A stretch of DNA of 64,000 nt from Borrelia recurrentis A1 (GTDB taxonomy: Bacteria; Spirochaetota; Spirochaetia; Borreliales; Borreliaceae). This document shows, one piece after another, positions 12,842 through 36,869 of the stretch (position 1 is its first letter; every line of letters begins with the position of its first letter). The position numbers were made by a program, and so were the translations under genes. The notes under the pieces were generated by a model. It searched no databases. It was not told where the DNA came from and saw only the letters and a list, made by a program, of their open reading frames with translations. The DNA is taken from positions 1 through 64,000 of the forward strand of contig NC_011246.1 in NCBI RefSeq assembly GCF_000019705.1, given 5' to 3'.

Positions 12842-13977
12842 ATGAGTGCTAATAAAGCTTATAAGTACAGAATATATCCTGACGCTAATCAAAAGAAATA
12901 TTTTTCAAAAGTATTTGGGTGCGTAAGATTTTTGTATAACAAAATGTTAAGTGATAAGAAAGATTATTATGAAAAAAATAAACAAAGTCTTATTCTTATC
13001 CAAGCAAATATAAAGAAGAATTTCTATTCTTAAAGGAAGTTGATAGTTTGGCTCTTTGCAATGCCCAACTTGACTTAAATTCTGCGTATAGTAATTTTTT
13101 TAGAGAAATTAAAAAAGGAAATAGAACACAAGGATTTCCTAAATATAAAAGTAAGAAAAATAGACAAACCTTTAGAACTAATAATCAAAAAAACTCAATA
13201 AGAATAGAAAATGATTATATAAAGCTACCTAAAATAGGATTTGTAAAATTAGCTCTACATAGGAAAATTAAAAGCAATGAACTTATTAAAAATGTAGTAG
13301 TAGAAAAAGATACTGATGATAAATATTACATTTCAGTAGCGGTTGAGTGCTTAGATGTTAAAAATAACGATAAAACTAAATGCAATAAAAAAGAGATAGT
13401 TGGTATTGATATGAGTATGAGGCATTTTTTAGTAAGTAGTGGGGGTGAAAAAATCAATCATTCCAAATGTTTACTAAAAAATGAATGTAAACTCAAGAAA
13501 TGCCAAAGAAAACTATCAAAAAAACAAAAGGGCTCTAGAAATAGAGCTAAATCTAGATTAAGAGTTGCCAAATTGCATAGGAAAATTTCAAATCAAAGAA
13601 AAGATTTTTTACATAAATTATCTTATTATTTTGTAGTTAATTATAAAAATATAGTAATAGAAAGTCTATCAATTAAAAGTATGCAAAAAGGAATGTTTGG
13701 CAAAAGTGTTAATGATTTGGGATGGCATAAGTTTGTAAGACAATTATCATATAAATCAGAGTGGTGTGGAGCCTATTTACATAAAGTTGATAGATATTTT
13801 CCATCAAGCAAGCTATGCAACAATTACGGTATTAAAAATACAACCCTAATAAAATTAAGTGATATTAGGTGGAGTTGTAGGAGTTGTAACACTTTGCAGG
13901 ATAGAGATATAAATGCAGCTCTAAATCTTAAAGCTTATTATTATAAGGAAATAAAAACTAAGGCAGGAACTGCCTGA
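12842..13977 (+). pseudogene. tnpB remnant (IS605-type copy 1)
   Basis: A copy of the intact TnpB at 39.4-40.5 kb, broken by a one-base deletion near 12990 (an A lost after CTTATT), splitting it into 12842-13033 and 13048-13977. The RuvC-like acidic residues remain (GIDMSMRHF, IVIESL, QDRDINAAL). The zinc finger is damaged: CNNCG has become CNNYG, and there is an extra codon before the second Cys pair. These extra changes point to real decay rather than a single base-calling error. Confidence 0.85.
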
Positions 13978-21765: not shown

Positions 21766-22637
21766 ATGAAATTAATATATAAAATAATATTTATACTAAG
21801 TGCATTTCTTATATATTGCTGTAGTCAAAACACGAAAAACCCTACAGATGATACTAGAGCCAGTGCTCCATTTAATCAATTAAGTTCAAGCCCAGAAGAG
21901 GAAGAAGAGGAAGAAGAAATACTAACAGATACACTAAGAAAAGTTAAAACACTAAAGGAAGTGGCTTATGATGCATTAACTGCTAGCTTTAATGCGCTTG
22001 AAACATTGTATCATCATAAAGATGAAGGATTTGATATATCTTCACTATTTGAAGAGATTAACAAAAAATTTAATAAAGATAGTCACAGGCTTCACATTCA
22101 AGATGTTCAAGATAAAGTTACCTACAGTATATCTGGAAATATCAATTGTTTAGAGAATTTAAAAAAATAGTACTACATTCCTCAATTACCAATAAAGATG
22201 AGTATATGAAAGAACAAAACGCTAAGCCTTTAATTTATAAATTAAGTGATATTGCAAAACACTCTATTAATATAATATTAAAGGATGACAATAAATTTGG
22301 AAAGGGCAAATTAGAACAACTACAACAAAGCCAAAATATACAAGGTATCAACACACTTAAAGATATGTTAGATAATATGCATTCACAATGGCAAGAAATT
22401 GTGAAATCAATACAAGATATAATCGAAAAGGCTGCACAACATGACAGCAAAGATAATATTATTGAGGAATTAAAACCAATACTCACACTAGAGACTCTTA
22501 AAGACGATCAAGTATATAGTGCTCAGGAAAACGGTGATCTTAAACTTTGCAAACTCAAAAATCACTTTAAAACATTATGTTCTAAAGTGATAGATCAAGT
22601 GCAAGAACTACTTAACGAAATAAATCCAGCACCATAA
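21766..22637 (+). pseudogene. Subfamily A lipoprotein, -1 frameshift at A7
   Basis: The signal ends LIYCC (Cys 18 or 19). The linker includes eight consecutive Glu (about residues 45-52). LYHHKDEGFDISSLFEEINKKF and the SISGN variant of the KGD motif follow. The first frame ends at 22168-22170, where TTA AAA AAA TAG interrupts NLKK. Rereading one base in the A7 run gives NLKKIVLHSSITNKDEYM and continues to 22637 with LCKLKNHF. This is exactly the codon position of the break in the 10197-11101 gene, on an independent paralog. About 290 residues if joined. Confidence 0.75.
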
Positions 22638-23950: not shown

Positions 23951-24846
23951 TTAATTTTCTTTCTTTGACTTTTGTTTATCTGAATCTCCTTTTAATTTTG
24001 AATAAATACGGAACTTACGAGCCCTTTGTTCCTTCAGATCAACAATTTTTTCTTTAATTATTTCTTTAAAACCAAACAAACCACTCTTAGTATCAACTTT
24101 ATTAAAAATATCTCCATCATTACCAATAATAAGATCCAACTCATATTTAATGGAGGCAATTTTTTTAAATTCACTATATTTTCTATATTATCTATAAATA
24201 AATTAAAAACATATTCCTTTTGTTTAAACAAGTTATCTAAAGCAACACTAATAGAATTAATAGAATCTAAGTCATTATCCTCCTGCAACATATCTAAATT
24301 AGAGTTACTCAAAATTTCACCATTCTCTTCTACAACATCCAAAGCATATATCCCAATATCTTGTAAAACTATCAACAAATTCAAAGCTGTATTCTCATAT
24401 TCAGAAACTATTCTAGGATCATCAATCTTAACAGAAATCAATTTATTTACAATACTCTTTACTTTTTCAAGATATTCTACATTATATTTCATAGCAATAT
24501 AAACACAATTTTTGGAATAATCATCTTTAAAATAATGATTAAAACCATGAAACATGCCATCAAATTTGGATTTATCAAAACCTTTAGAACCAACATCTAA
24601 TGAAATCCTAAATTCCTGAACTTTTCTTTTTAATGATTCATAAGGTGTTATTGGCAAGGGAAGATCTCTATATAGATCTAAACTTTCTGTTGTATATGAA
24701 TCTAAATTTAGTAGGTCAAAATTATCTAAATGTTTTGAAAGAACAACTTTGTGTACATCACCAAAATTATCTTTTCTAACAACTGAACAACTAATGAATA
24801 AATTTAAAGCAACAATTATCAATACTCCCATACCTATTCTTGACAT
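23951..24846 (-). pseudogene. Array lipoprotein, -1 frameshift at A7 near 3' end
   Basis: The signal ends NLFISC (Cys 20). GSKGFDKSKFDGMFHGFNHYF is the subfamily motif and CVIAMKYNVEYL-like text follows (CVYIAMKYNVEY). In the first frame NIVNLKKLPPLNMSW runs into an unrelated hydrophobic tail ending at 24058. Rereading one base at an A7 run (AAT TTA AAA AAA TTG) gives NLKKIASIKYELDLIIG, then the normal helical C-terminus to 23951. So the 262-residue version has an out-of-frame tail of about 24 residues. This is the third A7 event, at a different place in the gene but again in an NLKKI codon string. Confidence 0.7.
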
Positions 24847-24999: not shown

Positions 25000-25872
25000 C
25001 TATTTGGTCAATTCTTCAACTTTCTTAATAATTGCAAAGTTTAAGCTCTGTAAACTCAATTTATTAGCACCAACAGGAGCATCAAAAGGATTAAAAATCC
25101 TATTATAAATATCACTATCCCTACTAATCATACTGCTAAGATAAACGCTTATTGCTCTAGCCTTACTCTGAGGGTCTGCTAAATCAGAATATATTCCCAT
25201 TGAACGTTCCAAAATTGCACTTAATTTACTTACTAAAACATTATGTTGCAATAAAACACTATCCAATTTAGATTTAAGATCTCTTAAACTAGCCACATTA
25301 TCTCTCCTTTTTAATATATTTAAATTGGCTACATTTAAAATAACCCCTTTCTCATCCACAATATCACTTATATATTGAGTACTAATACTTAAATATCTAA
25401 GCAAATTAACAACTAAATCACAACCCTTCTTTTCACCTGAATTTACTAAACTTTTTATTATTGTCTTTAAATTACCTAAAGAATCAACATCATAATTTAA
25501 ACTAGCATAAATTTCTCTTTTAACTTTTACATCATACCCAATTTTATAACCATATGAAGAACAAATTTGAAACATATCATCAAACTGAGCTTCATCAAAT
25601 TCCATACAATCAAACTTTAATGTCTTTTTAATATTGTTAATACTTTGAAGTAACTCAGAATAAGCTAGAGAACCTTTATTGCCTTGGCCTTGCTTTTGCA
25701 ATATTATATCTATACCAAAACTTGATAAAGCAGCAGTTCCCCCCTTATTACTCTTACTCTTAGCATACCTCAAATATGGGTAACTTTCACCACTTGATAA
25801 CTGCCCATCAAATGAACACCCTATGATCATCAAACAACTCAAAATAAAAAATATTAGACATATTATTTTCAT
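25000..25872 (-). CDS. Surface lipoprotein, array subfamily B
   Basis: 290 residues from the ATG at 25872 (AGAGGAGCTATTTG upstream). The signal ends MIIGC (Cys 19). The linker contains PYLRYAKSKSNKGG. FDCMEFDEAQFDDMF resembles the subfamily A motif, and EIYASLNYDVDSLGNL the second motif in the YASL-YD form typical of subfamilies B and C. The C-terminus lacks the Cys pair. It appears transitional between A and B. Presumed surface lipoprotein, function unknown. Confidence 0.75.
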   Translation of the reverse strand: MKIICLIFFILSCLMIIGCSFDGQLSSGESYPYLRYAKSKSNKGGTAALSSFGIDIILQKQGQGNKGSLAYSELLQSINNIKKTLKFDCMEFDEAQFDDMFQICSSYGYKIGYDVKVKREIYASLNYDVDSLGNLKTIIKSLVNSGEKKGCDLVVNLLRYLSISTQYISDIVDEKGVILNVANLNILKRRDNVASLRDLKSKLDSVLLQHNVLVSKLSAILERSMGIYSDLADPQSKARAISVYLSSMISRDSDIYNRIFNPFDAPVGANKLSLQSLNFAIIKKVEELTK

Positions 25873-26092
25873 CAAATAGCTCCTCTAACATAGAAATATT
25901 ACAAAACAATACCCTGACATATGTAATGAAATATATTAAAACATTATATTTCATTATTATTAATTAACAAATATTAAATTAATAATAATAAATATTTTTA
26001 ATTTAATTAAAGATATTAATCTCTTTTAATCAAAAGAGTAACATCAAATACACAACTTTAAAAAAACATTTAAAAAACAATTATTTTGACAT

Positions 26093-26890
26093 TCATAAAC
26101 ACAATTTTAAATTATCAAATTCTTCTTCAAGTGCAACTCTTAAATATCTAAGACTTTTTAAACCATTAATCATTTCTCTAATATATCCTTGCGAACCAGT
26201 AATCAAATTTAACTTAAGTAAAAATTTATCATTATCATTAATAACATCTATTGCACCACTTAGCATATTTTTAACTTCATCCACAATAGTATTTTGTAGT
26301 TTCAGCATTTCATCTAAATAAGACTTAATTAAATTAATACCTGTTATATTATTACTACATCGCATCATACTCAAATTATCCTGACTAAAAATTCCATAAT
26401 CTTCATCTATAACTTCTCTTACATAAATAGCACTAGCGCTCAAGCGATACAATAATATTAAAGCAATATCTTTATGATTAGCAGATATTAAAGTTTCTAT
26501 CAACCTTTTCAAATTTGCAATAATCAAAGAATTATACTTTAAACTACCATAAACATCATCTTTTGCCTCATCATCACTAAAATCCATATCATATATACCA
26601 AAAATACCATTGTCAAACTGCAATTTAACTGACAAAAAAGCATCACGATTTTCACTATAAGAAGACTTAAGAGCATACAAACTTTTCATTAATTGATCAT
26701 AAACCACATTTGCTTGAGGATATTTATATCTAATCGGAGGTAATTGTGATGGAGCTAACGTATTGCCACTTTGTGATAAATCATCAAAATTCATCACAAC
26801 AATATCATCTGCTGAATCATTATGTACTTTACACGCCAAAAATAAATTTAGGATATAAAACATAAAAATTAATATATAAATTCTTATCAT
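26093..26890 (-). CDS. Surface lipoprotein, array subfamily B
   Basis: 265 residues. The signal ends LFLAC (Cys 20). A short linker is rich in Pro and Gln. NRDAFLSVKLQFDNGIFGIYD and VYGSLKYNSLIIANLKRLI are the two family motifs. Long helices with few cysteines follow. Upstream of the ATG is AGGGAGGGTATTTA. Presumed surface exposed, not otherwise recognised. Confidence 0.75.
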   Translation of the reverse strand: MIRIYILIFMFYILNLFLACKVHNDSADDIVVMNFDDLSQSGNTLAPSQLPPIRYKYPQANVVYDQLMKSLYALKSSYSENRDAFLSVKLQFDNGIFGIYDMDFSDDEAKDDVYGSLKYNSLIIANLKRLIETLISANHKDIALILLYRLSASAIYVREVIDEDYGIFSQDNLSMMRCSNNITGINLIKSYLDEMLKLQNTIVDEVKNMLSGAIDVINDNDKFLLKLNLITGSQGYIREMINGLKSLRYLRVALEEEFDNLKLCL

Positions 26891-27025: not shown

Positions 27026-27814
27026 TCATTGTAGCCATAATGTTTCTTTTAATTCCTCTAATTTTTTTATAATATCATTCTTTAACCCTAAAAGACTCTC
27101 ATCACCCACATGAATTTTTTTATAAATAATTCCCGTATTCGAACCAATTATCCTTATATTACCATTAATACTTGATATACGATCAGCAGAAGCAACTTCC
27201 ATGAATTTTTTTATGCTACTAAAAATATTCCTAATATCTTTAATTACACTTGCCCTTCTATATAATAATTCACCAAACATAGCATTAAGTGAACTAACAA
27301 TATGCATATTATTCCCCTTCTTAATATTAACAAGATTAAAATCACTAATAACAACATCACTTGCTGTTATAACAGCAGAAACATATTGATCAATATCTCT
27401 TAAAGAAAATAATAAAGCTTTAATATTTTGTTTCCTATCCTCATCAATAAAGCCAAATAATCTAGCTATGAGATTTTTTAAAATCTCAATATCTTCAACA
27501 TTATAATCTAAACTAGCATAAACACTATTTCTTTGACTTTCAGTTTTAAATTCATTATCAAATATAATATTGTCAAATGGAATTTCTTTATCAAAATCTT
27601 CCTTTTTTAATTTAAATGACTCATAATTGGAATGAAACATTCTTTTAAATTTTAAGTAATTTACTTTAAGTAACTCAACATCACTTCTTCCATCATAACC
27701 ACTAAGTCCATCTTTACCATTATGACCCACAAATCCAGCTAAACCACGCTCCCCTATTTTACATCCAAATACTAACAACATTAAAATAAAAATTACTACA
27801 TAAATTTTTTTCAT
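27026..27814 (-). CDS. Lipoprotein with collagen-like stalk
   Basis: 262 residues. The signal ends LVFGC (Cys 18). Directly after KI come eight Gly-X-Y triplets, GER GLA GFV GHN GKD GLS GYD GRS (residues 21-44). Then a helical domain begins with DVELLKVNYLKFKRMF and has VYASLDYNVEDIEILKNL. GXY runs form triple helices in bacterial collagen-like proteins, so a trimeric stalk lifting the helical head is possible; eight triplets without many prolines is short for that. Last gene of a tight three-gene run with two relatives of the same layout (27 bases after the previous gene). Function unknown. Confidence 0.8.
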   Translation of the reverse strand: MKKIYVVIFILMLLVFGCKIGERGLAGFVGHNGKDGLSGYDGRSDVELLKVNYLKFKRMFHSNYESFKLKKEDFDKEIPFDNIIFDNEFKTESQRNSVYASLDYNVEDIEILKNLIARLFGFIDEDRKQNIKALLFSLRDIDQYVSAVITASDVVISDFNLVNIKKGNNMHIVSSLNAMFGELLYRRASVIKDIRNIFSSIKKFMEVASADRISSINGNIRIIGSNTGIIYKKIHVGDESLLGLKNDIIKKLEELKETLWLQ

Positions 27815-27841
27815 AAAAACTCCTTTTAGAGCCTCAACATA

Positions 27842-28606
27842 CTAGACATTGGTATTTATTTTCTTAATAATTAGATCTCTCAAACTTTTCAAGCTATCAT
27901 TATCTCCATAAATTTTTTCATAAATATTACCACCAACATCAATAATTGGAGCTAACTCAACTTTAAGATTTGAAGGACTTGATGAACCCAATATTGCCAA
28001 ATTTGGATTTTTCAGTAATACTTTAATATCATTAACAATACTTTCTCTTAAACCTAACATACCCATCAAAAGAAAATTAAGTTCAAAAACAACAGACCTG
28101 TCAAAACTACGCAACCTATCCAAGTCAAAATCAGGAGTAAATAAATTTAAGTTTATAACCTCATCAATATAACTGGCACTATCTAATAGAGAATTCAAAA
28201 AATTTTTAGCAACATTATGATCTTGCGAAGTAGAACTACGACCTCCTACCAATAATCGCAAAATATGCAATACATCCTCAAAAACCAATTCATTACTCTT
28301 TACTGCAATACAAATATAATCTTTATTTTTATCTGATTGGAATTTATCCTCAAATGCAACATGTGAGAATATAGAAGACTTTTCAATAGAATCCTTAATT
28401 TTCTTAACATCACCAAGATTATAATTATAAGAACTCTTAAGGACTAAAAAGGCTGACATTAACAATTCAACATCACCATGATGATCTTGTCCCTTCTCTC
28501 CATCTCTTCCATCAGGACCCCTAAGACCCTGTATCCCAGTAGGCCCAACACATCCCAATATCACTAAAAAATTTACAACACATATTAATACATTCATTCT
28601 TTTCAT
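27842..28606 (-). CDS. Lipoprotein with collagen-like stalk
   Basis: 254 residues from the ATG at 28606, which has GGGAG at good spacing; an ATG 4 codons upstream overlaps that ribosome site. The signal ends VILGC (Cys 19). Then V and seven GXY triplets, GPT GIQ GLR GPD GRD GEK GQD, followed by HHGDVELL and a helical domain (YICIAVKSNELVFEDVL in the YASL position). It contains the typical collagen triplets GPD and GEK. The middle gene of the three, 30 bases from the next start upstream, so probably co-transcribed. Confidence 0.8.
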   Translation of the reverse strand: MKRMNVLICVVNFLVILGCVGPTGIQGLRGPDGRDGEKGQDHHGDVELLMSAFLVLKSSYNYNLGDVKKIKDSIEKSSIFSHVAFEDKFQSDKNKDYICIAVKSNELVFEDVLHILRLLVGGRSSTSQDHNVAKNFLNSLLDSASYIDEVINLNLFTPDFDLDRLRSFDRSVVFELNFLLMGMLGLRESIVNDIKVLLKNPNLAILGSSSPSNLKVELAPIIDVGGNIYEKIYGDNDSLKSLRDLIIKKINTNV

Positions 28607-28636
28607 AAAAACTCCCATTCTAAGAATCTATAAAAA

Positions 28637-29413
28637 CTAAACTCTTCGTTTTAAATTTTTTATTTTATTTAAAATTGCCTCTTTTAAACTAAACAAACTA
28701 TCAACACCTAAATTAACTTGTTTATAAATATTTCCTGATGAAGTAATAATTACATTTAATGAATTCATAATATTACGCATACTTGGGTTTCCAACATCGA
28801 TATATCCCTTTAACATACTAAACAACAATCTAATATCATCTATTATCTTTTCTCTCCCCATCCACATCATCATTAACATAACATTAAGGTCACTAATACC
28901 TTCAACATCATCAATTTCATTTAATACATCTAAACTAGGCTCCAATGCAGACAAAACTAATTTTACATGTCGAGCACTATCAACTAAAACATTCAATACA
29001 TGTAAAGCATTACTCCTAATTATTTCATCCTTATTATCCACCAATATCTCTACAACCTTTTCTACTACCTTAATATCCTCAATGTTATATTTTAAGCTAG
29101 CATAAAAATCATTTCTTTGCTCAACATTGCTACCCGAAAATTCATCTTTAAATACACTATGAGAGAAAAAAGCTTCAGCATCAAAATTATTAACTTCAGA
29201 ATCAAATTTTTCTCTATTAGCAGTATACGACCTATAAAGATTAAAAAAATTCATATACAAAATCGCAAGATCACCTCGTCCAGCCTTACCCGGTTTTCCA
29301 TCAACCCCATCACTTCCTGCAAGCCCCATCCGACCTGAAGGGCCTTTAGCATCACAACCCGTAAATAACAAAACACCAAATGTAATACTCATTACCATAC
29401 ATATAAATTTCAT
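28637..29413 (-). CDS. Lipoprotein with collagen-like stalk
   Basis: 258 residues. The signal ends LLFTGC (Cys 20). After DAK come eight GXY triplets, GPS GRM GLA GSD GVD GKP GKA GRG, then DLAILYMNFFNLYRSY. FYASLKYNIEDIKVVEKVV is the second family motif. GKP and GPS are typical collagen triplets. First gene of the three-gene run, with GTGAGGAGTGGTTGA upstream of the ATG. The head domains of the three genes are clearly paralogous but differ throughout, while the GXY layout is kept, suggesting the stalk matters. Confidence 0.8.
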   Translation of the reverse strand: MKFICMVMSITFGVLLFTGCDAKGPSGRMGLAGSDGVDGKPGKAGRGDLAILYMNFFNLYRSYTANREKFDSEVNNFDAEAFFSHSVFKDEFSGSNVEQRNDFYASLKYNIEDIKVVEKVVEILVDNKDEIIRSNALHVLNVLVDSARHVKLVLSALEPSLDVLNEIDDVEGISDLNVMLMMMWMGREKIIDDIRLLFSMLKGYIDVGNPSMRNIMNSLNVIITSSGNIYKQVNLGVDSLFSLKEAILNKIKNLKRRV

Positions 29414-30214: not shown

Positions 30215-31276
30215 TTATTTTACTAAATATGCTATGCGAGTTACCATTCCTATAATAGAATAAGATGCATGCTGAATCTCTCTACTAGAATTATTCTCAA
30301 GCCCAATAGTTTGTTTTAACCCCCTCAACACTTCTTTTTTATTTTTCGATGCTAATGAGAGTATTTATTCTTGAATTATCTTTACTGCATTGTCTCTTTC
30401 GATCATAAATTTTTCTAAGAGATCATTAAGTGCAATTATATCTTCCACGCTCTTACCATTTTTAATTCGATCTAAATTTGCAGTATTTAAATGATTATTG
30501 ATAAGTTTTCTTGTATAATTTGAAATATTTAATAATAGATTAAATAAATGAGCTGCAACTCTTGTATCACCATAAGAATAAAGAGCAGGATATTTTAAAT
30601 CCAAATTATTTAATATTTTCTCTAATCCCGTAATAACTTTAACATCACTCCCCAAAGCAGCATAAATATCTGATTGTTACTCTGCAGAAGTAAAAATTGG
30701 TGACACCTTTTTAAAAGGAATACTTAATGAATAATGCCTTGGATTAAATCGTCTGCGTTCATGTATAAGTTTTGATTTATACTTTAATACTCTAGATTCA
30801 AATGCAGCATAAACTTCTTGTGCTGTTTTTTTAGGAATTAATAACTTAACTTTTCCATCAATCTTTAAATTTGACCTAAACTTACTTTTACTTTCAAGTT
30901 GCCTAGCATCACTCTTTTCATTTTTTGCAGATTTATTATCTCCAAACACTCTATCCCCAACTCTCTTGTTTGAAACATCCTTCTCTAAAACCCCCTTACC
31001 TAAATCTAGAGATTTAGCAACAACTTTGGTTAAATCTCTATCTTTTGCTACAATCTCTTTTGATTCAAGTTTTACTTTATCCAAAATTAAAGATTTTTGA
31101 TCCTTTAAATCCGTTTGTTCAAGTATTTCTGTTTGTTTAAGTGTTTTTTTACGTGAATAATTCTTTAAATTATCTTTTGATTGATGCATATCTAAAAAAT
31201 TAGTAATTTCTGACAATTTAAGCTGCTTACAAGATATCATACCAAATGCATATAAAATTATGCCCAATCCTTGCAT
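30215..31276 (-). pseudogene. Subfamily C lipoprotein with two in-frame stops
   Basis: The start is the ATG at 31276 (AAAGGAGAAGTTT upstream). The signal ends GMISC (Cys 16). A long Lys/Asp-rich linker leads to YSLSIPFKKVSPIFTSAE, then TAA (near 30677) in the place of a sense codon. The same frame goes on with QSDIYAALGSDVKVITGLEKIL to IIQE, a second TAA (30365-30367), and then about 49 more codons ending YLVK at 30215. No base shift is needed, so these are point nonsense changes, unlike the tract frameshifts elsewhere. Only the N-terminal 200 residues would be made. Confidence 0.75.
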
Positions 31277-31430
31277 AAACTTCTCCTTTATCTTAGCGTT
31301 TACACCAACCAATATTTAAACTCAATATAATGCAATATAATGATATTTACTAAATGATTTATATAAAAAAAGAAAATTTTGCTAATATTTTTTTTCTTTT
31401 TGTTATATGGTTTTTAATTATAATATTTAA

Positions 31431-35850: not shown

Positions 35851-36746
35851 TCATATTCTCCTTGCATTTATATACATATCTACCTTGGGCAAATCCTTTA
35901 TGATTCCAATAACTAATTCTTGAATAGTTTTTGCAAAATCAGAACTATCAGCAATTTTCTTCTGAATCCCTCCATCTCTAATAATCTTACCAAGTTCCGC
36001 CTCCATTAACCTTCTGTAACGTTTTAAGTTTGCCACACTATTTATAACATTTTTAAAATCCGCTATCAATTCATCTCTTAATTGCATAAACAATAATAAT
36101 AAATTGGTGATACTCGAAACATTTTCCACTGTAATCTCTTTACTCATCTTAATTTTTTCTAATACTTCATCACTAAAGAGATTAACAACAAAATTAATAT
36201 GATATGCAAGTTGCTCTAAATTAAATAATAAAAAAGAGATGCAATTCTTACATCCACCTTATCTATATTTCTCTCTGAAAGCGGTATATCAATAAAAGTT
36301 AATCCCACATTTAATGTATTGAGTATCTCTCTTAATGCATTAATGCAATCAAGATCATATCCTAAAACCATATAAATATTGCGACTCTTATTAACTCCAT
36401 CACAATAAGTATCAAATTCCAAATTTCCCTTTTGAAGAGCTGACATCTTACCATAACATGACAACTCTTTAACAATATCCTTGCTATATTGATCAATAAC
36501 AGAAATAGAACTCTTGCTCAAACCACTATTTCTATATTCATAATCAATCAACAATTTAAAAAAAGAAACTAAAGATTCTAAATCATTATAAGTTCTACTT
36601 ACTGAACTTCTAAAAAATGGAATCAATTCAAATGTTGAAAATGCGAATTTATCATTATTAATCTTCTCTCCATCATTCAAAACAGCATCAGATCTGCATC
36701 CTAATACAAAATTTAACACACATAAGAAAATAAAAAACCTTATCAT
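35851..36746 (-). pseudogene. Subfamily C lipoprotein, frameshift at T6
   Basis: The start is the ATG at 36746 (TAGGGGAGAAATTT upstream). The signal ends FVLGC (Cys 17). The first frame stops at 36216 after RIASLFYYLI. Adding one T to the T6 run there gives RIASLFLLFNLEQLAYHINF, which matches paralogs (TNLLNGLMYVAHSI type), and continues to 35851. The correction is again a -1 shift in reading. About 295 residues if joined. This member has an insertion (YSKDIVKELSCYGK) before the YMVLGYDLD motif. Confidence 0.7.
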
Positions 36747-36869
36747 AAATTTCTCCCCTAATATTATCAATATTTTAACAAATAGTAATATACTCTATAA
36801 CGATATGTCAAATTACTATATATATAAATATATAGATTAGAAATACCTAAATTTATAACATCAAACCAA

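Follow-up and report, generated by a model that had tools for sequence, protein, structure and literature searches.

The closest described systems to the three genes reported here, designated A, B and C, are the Borrelia PFam54_60 lipoproteins CspA/BbCRASP-1, BBA64-BBA73, BBE31, BGA71 and ChiA-ChiE (PMC13128870). Lipobox, helical fold and tandem plasmid array are shared with A, B and C. The described members carry a plain disordered tether, whereas A, B and C carry a Gly-X-Y (GXY) stalk, and as proteins they score below the Pfam cut-off for the family. Among the family's members are CspA, which binds factor H, BGA71, which inhibits complement, and ChiA-ChiE of B. recurrentis; the report on these proteins does not mention collagen (PMC13128870). 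The array itself is, by position and content, probably block B of the relapsing-fever megaplasmids. Region 1 of block B has been described as hypothetical proteins with a few Bbcrasp-1 matches, and the description mentions no GXY stalks; the one "collagen-like" mention in that study refers to a B. parkeri gene of block D (PMC10580987).

Collagen-like proteins of other bacteria offer a second comparison. Scl1/Scl2 and BclA likewise have uninterrupted GXY runs and an adjoining globular domain, with proline favoured at X as it is in the Borrelia stalks taken family-wide; A, B and C differ from them in an N-terminal lipid anchor, a predicted spirochete surface location, only 7–9 triplets and a PFam54 head. 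Bucl3 and Bucl8 of Burkholderia, a bacterium that also has two membranes, are likewise predicted to be lipoproteins and contain collagen-like regions, with partner domains unrelated to PFam54 (Talin-1-like and efflux OEP; PMC4565658). Complement C1q and the collectins share the layout of an N-terminal collagen-like region followed by C-terminal heads. This is an analogy of layout without homology, as the stalk of A, B and C is far shorter, the head is helical and the chain is lipid-anchored. C1q is built from three different chains (A, B and C).

We analysed the first 64,000 nucleotides of Borrelia recurrentis A1 contig NC_011246.1 (hereafter the window). An earlier note on this DNA had reported three adjacent lipoprotein genes with 7–8 uninterrupted triplets, and these open reading frames were confirmed on the minus strand. 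Gene A (28637–29413, 258 aa) encodes eight triplets (GPS GRM GLA GSD GVD GKP GKA GRG; 29273–29344), gene B (27842–28618, 258 aa) encodes seven (GPT GIQ GLR GPD GRD GEK GQD; 28484–28546) and gene C (27026–27814, 262 aa) encodes eight lacking proline (GER GLA GFV GHN GKD GLS GYD GRS; 27683–27754). Inspection by eye and a simple script identified a lipoprotein signal peptide in each, with a hydrophobic N-terminus and the lipoboxes FTGC, ILGC and VFGC. The predicted mature N-termini read C-DAK-(8 triplets)-DLAIL for A, C-V-(7 triplets)-HHGDVELL for B and C-KI-(8 triplets)-DVELL for C. The run is thus uninterrupted as originally described, but starts 1–3 residues past the lipidated cysteine and not directly after it. 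A helical head of ~210 residues follows the stalk. Pairwise head identity is only 27–32% while the 8/7/8 triplets are perfect, in agreement with the observation that the heads differ widely as the layout stays.

The A–B (28619–28636) and B–C (27815–27841) intergenic gaps show operon-like spacing and span only 18 and 27 nt, making co-transcription of the three genes likely on sequence grounds. Gaps in orthologous trios are ~40 nt. A promoter and terminator scan gave the same result as shuffled sequence. Downstream of the trio lies a stalkless array member (26093–26890, minus strand), which a tree of head sequences places with other stalkless genes and outside the D group, the long-stalked set found in other species.

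The GXY runs were next compared with chance and with other array tethers. Among 200,000 shuffles of each 31-residue tether, the observed run was reached three times for A, once for B and never for C. A DNA pattern of GG every nine bases over six triplets gave nine overlapping matches in the window, all within A, B and C, and none in 100 shuffles. A chance origin was ruled out on both counts. Remaining lipoprotein ORFs in the window have at most two consecutive triplets. Across 188 lipoprotein-like ORFs taken from the equivalent arrays in 13 Borrelia genomes, a set with a few spurious frames, every one of them in the low class, run length was bimodal: 145 ORFs had 0–3 triplets, 43 had 7–37 and none had 4–6.

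Proline occupies 30% of X and 9% of Y positions over all stalks, compared with 4% in other tethers. The short stalks have 24% proline at X, and those of the window 3 of 23 X positions, with none in C (two prolines each in A and B, none in C overall). In the C stalk, X positions are also occupied by Phe and Tyr, residues that destabilise triple helices. For bacterial collagens, >30% proline at X and 5% at the Y position have been described (PMC3707005). With the Pfam Collagen model (PF01391), A, B and C scored 12.8–14.3 bits, under the 27.2-bit cut-off. The collagen-domain search proposed in the earlier note was positive for long-stalk relatives in B. parkeri and B. puertoricensis, which exceed the cut-off, and not for the window's own genes. 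None of 18 sister-genus genomes matched the model. A further match, at ~124 kb on the B. parkeri megaplasmid, is antisense to a gene annotated there and was taken as spurious.

The heads were assigned by profile and by structure. Against the PF05714 HMM, C scored 18.5 and A 18.3 bits and B gave no match; all lie under the curated cut-off of 27 bits, which is a detection threshold and not a structural definition, and we use the wording PFam54_60-type head in place of Pfam membership. Eight of the 26 members of set A1 matched PF05714 at E ≤ 0.01 (best 4e-7), and a window neighbour (25000–25875) scored 89 bits. A profile of A, B and C recovered the rest of the array, with matches at 21 sites of the same genome that extend down to 3e-5; one of these (25003–25647, E 3.4e-20) is part of the 89-bit gene. 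NCBIfam borfam54 models gave at most 14.6 bits. A PDB sequence search with A alone found nothing, and the A1 profile gave weak PDB matches to BGA71, ChiB, BBA65, BBA66 and CRASP-1. AlphaFold2 monomer models of C and A (mean pLDDT 84.6 and 85.7) have a CspA-like helical fold and match BBA65, BBA66, BBE31, BBA64 and BBA73 with Z of 15–17.6 over ~190–200 residues. The top 14 structure matches are all PFam54_60 (Z 10.7–17.6), with unrelated helical folds at ≤9.6. On the predicted models, the heads are of PFam54_60 type, and the earlier description of a helical head of the array family is borne out by both fold and profile homology. The stalk was modelled with pLDDT 36–58 over the first 20 residues, which is uninformative either way.

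Eleven genomes of the soft-tick type have the trio in synteny: the window genome, the same-species genome G003, G005, B. persica, B. coriaceae, B. hermsii, B. nietonii, B. parkeri, B. puertoricensis, B. turicatae and B. venezuelensis. Whole-genome searches with C gave strong matches in soft-tick-type genomes (99% identity in G003), faint matches only in G001 (E ~1e-5) and no match in nine other Borrelia genomes. A related-locus search with A2 found B. persica alone, and a plasmid search at the DNA level returned no near match. Triplet counts for A, B and C are 8, 7 and 8 in six genomes and 9, 8 and 9 in five, such that A = C = B+1 in 11/11. Wherever B occurs, A and C are also present. Ca. Borrelia fainii p100 has a single stalked trio-type gene (L005:6001-7850), with a C-terminal part like slot C; it aligns as an A-type protein with a C-type end, suggesting an A–C fusion by deletion. 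The gene that follows it is a stalk gene of the D type, which the annotation splits into two fragments.

Glycine-specific constraint was assessed by codon comparison with orthologs whose heads are 33–47% identical to the window's across species groups and 82–99% in close relatives. Stalk glycine codon pairs were non-synonymous in 0 of 1155 cases and synonymous in 51–61%, a comparison of intact stalks only and so open to ascertainment bias; X/Y codon pairs were non-synonymous in 53–74%. The bias should be limited, because 33 of 35 trio-type heads are stalked however chosen and the B. parkeri A protein, skipped by the lipobox filter, has nine triplets. When 26 proteins of the A, B and C types were aligned, only 14 columns were invariant, and six of these are stalk glycines; a seventh stalk glycine is >90% conserved. 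Uninterrupted, constrained GXY runs, as in bacterial collagen-like proteins, are therefore found here (7–8 triplets) and in relatives (7–37). Loss of the triplets in orthologs had been named in advance as evidence against the stalk; they are instead conserved, and the proposed selection on layout is upheld by a glycine phase kept in ~11 genomes while X and Y drift.

Two mutational origins of the repeat were considered and ruled out. Recent tandem 9-bp duplication does not fit glycine codons that vary silently in every column beside X/Y residues that differ. Gene conversion among the three stalks would raise paralog identity within a species, and X/Y identity among A, B and C stalks is 0.09 within and 0.11 between species.

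Long-stalk relatives were found in the New World species, where downstream array genes of the D group carry 9, 11, 17, 22, 28, 34 or 37 triplets after the cysteine. On the 140-row head tree, stalked proteins fall into two groups only, the trio and the D group, and stalk state requires 4 changes, compared with 37 for shuffled labels. Of 35 trio-type heads, 33 have an intact stalk and fall in one clade. The two exceptions, from B. hermsii and B. nietonii, are additional A copies that have lost strict GXY phase, each adjoined by an intact A copy. The longest D-group stalk (37 triplets) belongs to B. nietonii; at the same position in B. hermsii lp185 (L003:6829-7590) only small fragments are seen, as if the gene had decayed.

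We propose that A, B and C are lipid-anchored lipoproteins whose PFam54_60-type heads are trimerised by the stalk, a reading that we hold to be somewhat better than evenly probable. Each chain would comprise a lipid anchor, a short collagen-like (Gly-X-Y)7-9 stalk and an alpha-helical head, located on the surface of the outer membrane. The stalks of three chains would wind into a short collagen triple helix beside the membrane, clamping the three heads and keeping them clear of the surface in a small bouquet of three. Such an arrangement could provide avidity for a multivalent ligand. Family analogy suggests complement, or else other components of blood or of the tick, as that ligand, and any role of A, B and C towards complement is itself such an analogy. 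Trimerisation is favoured by the glycine-only constraint, which is expected since only glycine fits the helix core, by family-wide proline at X and by the long-stalk relatives. At the sequence level, fixed glycine with free X and Y is characteristic of a collagen triple helix and not of a flexible tether. The earlier interpretation was thus right on conservation, and its trimers are plausible. It is doubtful that the stalks could form a triple helix on their own at 37 °C, as there are only 7–8 triplets with 0–2 prolines each, and work in Burkholderia indicates that short collagen-like regions may not form triple helices (PMC4565658). The missing stability could come from three lipid anchors held in the membrane plane and from head–head contacts. 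CspA, of the same family as the heads, has been proposed to dimerise. A title cited in PMC13128870 proposes the same for BBA73, and such dimers fit poorly to a trimer.

The main rival to the trimeric stalk is a monomeric spacer, in which the GXY run forms a stiff, extended polyproline-II-like tether that spaces a single head without any oligomer. A disordered N-terminal tether is general among Borrelia lipoproteins (PMC13128870), the window's stalks are short and proline-poor, and stalkless PFam54_60 heads occur in the same array. A spacer would, however, tolerate both loss of glycine phase and substitution of Gly by Ala, Ser or Asn, and no such change occurred in the 1155 codon pairs while X and Y changed freely, and the other array tethers have no such pattern. 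We therefore regard this explanation as unlikely. Host-ligand binding by the stalk is very unlikely. Here the stalk would act as a host-collagen mimic, or the junction as an RGD, binding integrins, platelets or collagen-binding host proteins. At the stalk–head junction there is indeed an [R][G/S]D motif, which reads RGD in the A protein of every species and in 8/11 B proteins, and RSD in the C protein of every species; its Asp is invariant and its Arg >90% conserved in 26 sequences. The X/Y residues that would form a collagen-recognition motif are nevertheless not conserved, RSD is not the integrin tripeptide, and B of the window's lineage has HHGD or YHGD. The motif also lies at, or a few residues from, the predicted start of helix 1, where the Asp may merely cap the helix. 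PGKAG in A of the window's lineage resembles a C1r/C1s/MASP-binding motif; it was dropped from consideration, as other species do not conserve it.

A special case of the trimeric stalk is an ABC heterotrimer, in which three chains from one transcript form a single mixed triple helix like that of C1q; we consider this improbable. Tandem genes 18 and 27 nt apart, the A = C = B+1 relation in every genome, which fits matched chains, and the joint presence of all three wherever B occurs are consistent with it. The covariation is weak evidence, though, as a single concerted change in length suffices on the head tree; the single gene of Ca. B. fainii implies that three chains are not obligatory there, and a downstream long-stalk gene would be a homotrimer. 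The complete picture of one lipid-anchored heterotrimer in a C1q-like layout, with three different PFam54 heads per stem and perhaps stable mainly at tick temperature, is less probable again.

Were stalk-mediated trimerisation correct, a whole set of relapsing-fever surface lipoproteins would be trimeric or mixed-trimeric, in a family whose members have been treated as monomers or dimers. PFam54 heads produced recombinantly without tethers would then not have the true valency, and this could account for assays in which ligand binding is weak or absent. The locus would also represent a lipid-anchored collagen-like stalk system in spirochetes, and stalks of 7 to 37 triplets form a natural series for asking what length does on a bacterial surface. 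Stalk and head together are a new combination of two known kinds of domain. Open-licence literature on collagen-like or GXY Borrelia lipoproteins yielded no description of the A, B and C architecture, in line with the earlier note; several orthologs are nonetheless already labelled "collagen-like protein" by RefSeq automatic annotation.

Expression of the B. turicatae orthologs was inferred from gene numbering. The nrdF gene bta048 and the phage terminase gene bta098, both named in PMC4741519, correspond in accession order to WP_020282285 and WP_020282335, a constant offset of 237. By the same offset, B. turicatae A, B, C and D would be bta029, bta028, bta027 and bta026. The bta022-bta042 cluster is up-regulated at 22 °C relative to blood (PMC4741519), and the trio orthologs appear, from this numbering, to lie within it; the idea of a heterotrimer stem stable mainly at tick temperature draws on this.

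Other repetitive tethers and collagen-like proteins were also encountered. A G003 PFam54 lipoprotein (L040; G003:C5:14838-17893) has a Gly-rich tether, GSQGGTGAVGSQGGTG, which is periodic with Gly at X positions and not collagen-like. Two further lipoproteins, from two other Borrelia genomes (L108:5850-6434, G010:C2, and L109:7303-7836, G016:C2), are nearly all collagen-like (GPA GAK GEK GDP ..., ~40–55 triplets), have no head domain and have an N-terminus unlike the array genes. Within the window, at least four array genes (21766–22637, 24058–24846, 30365–31312 and 36216–36770) look broken or shortened relative to G003, in contrast to the three stalk genes, which are intact and 99% identical to it. 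IS200/IS605-type transposase-like sequences lie inside the lipoprotein array at 13048–13977 and 39396–40982, comprising TnpB-like ORFs at 13048–13977 and 39396–40529 and a TnpA-like ORF at 40563–40982.
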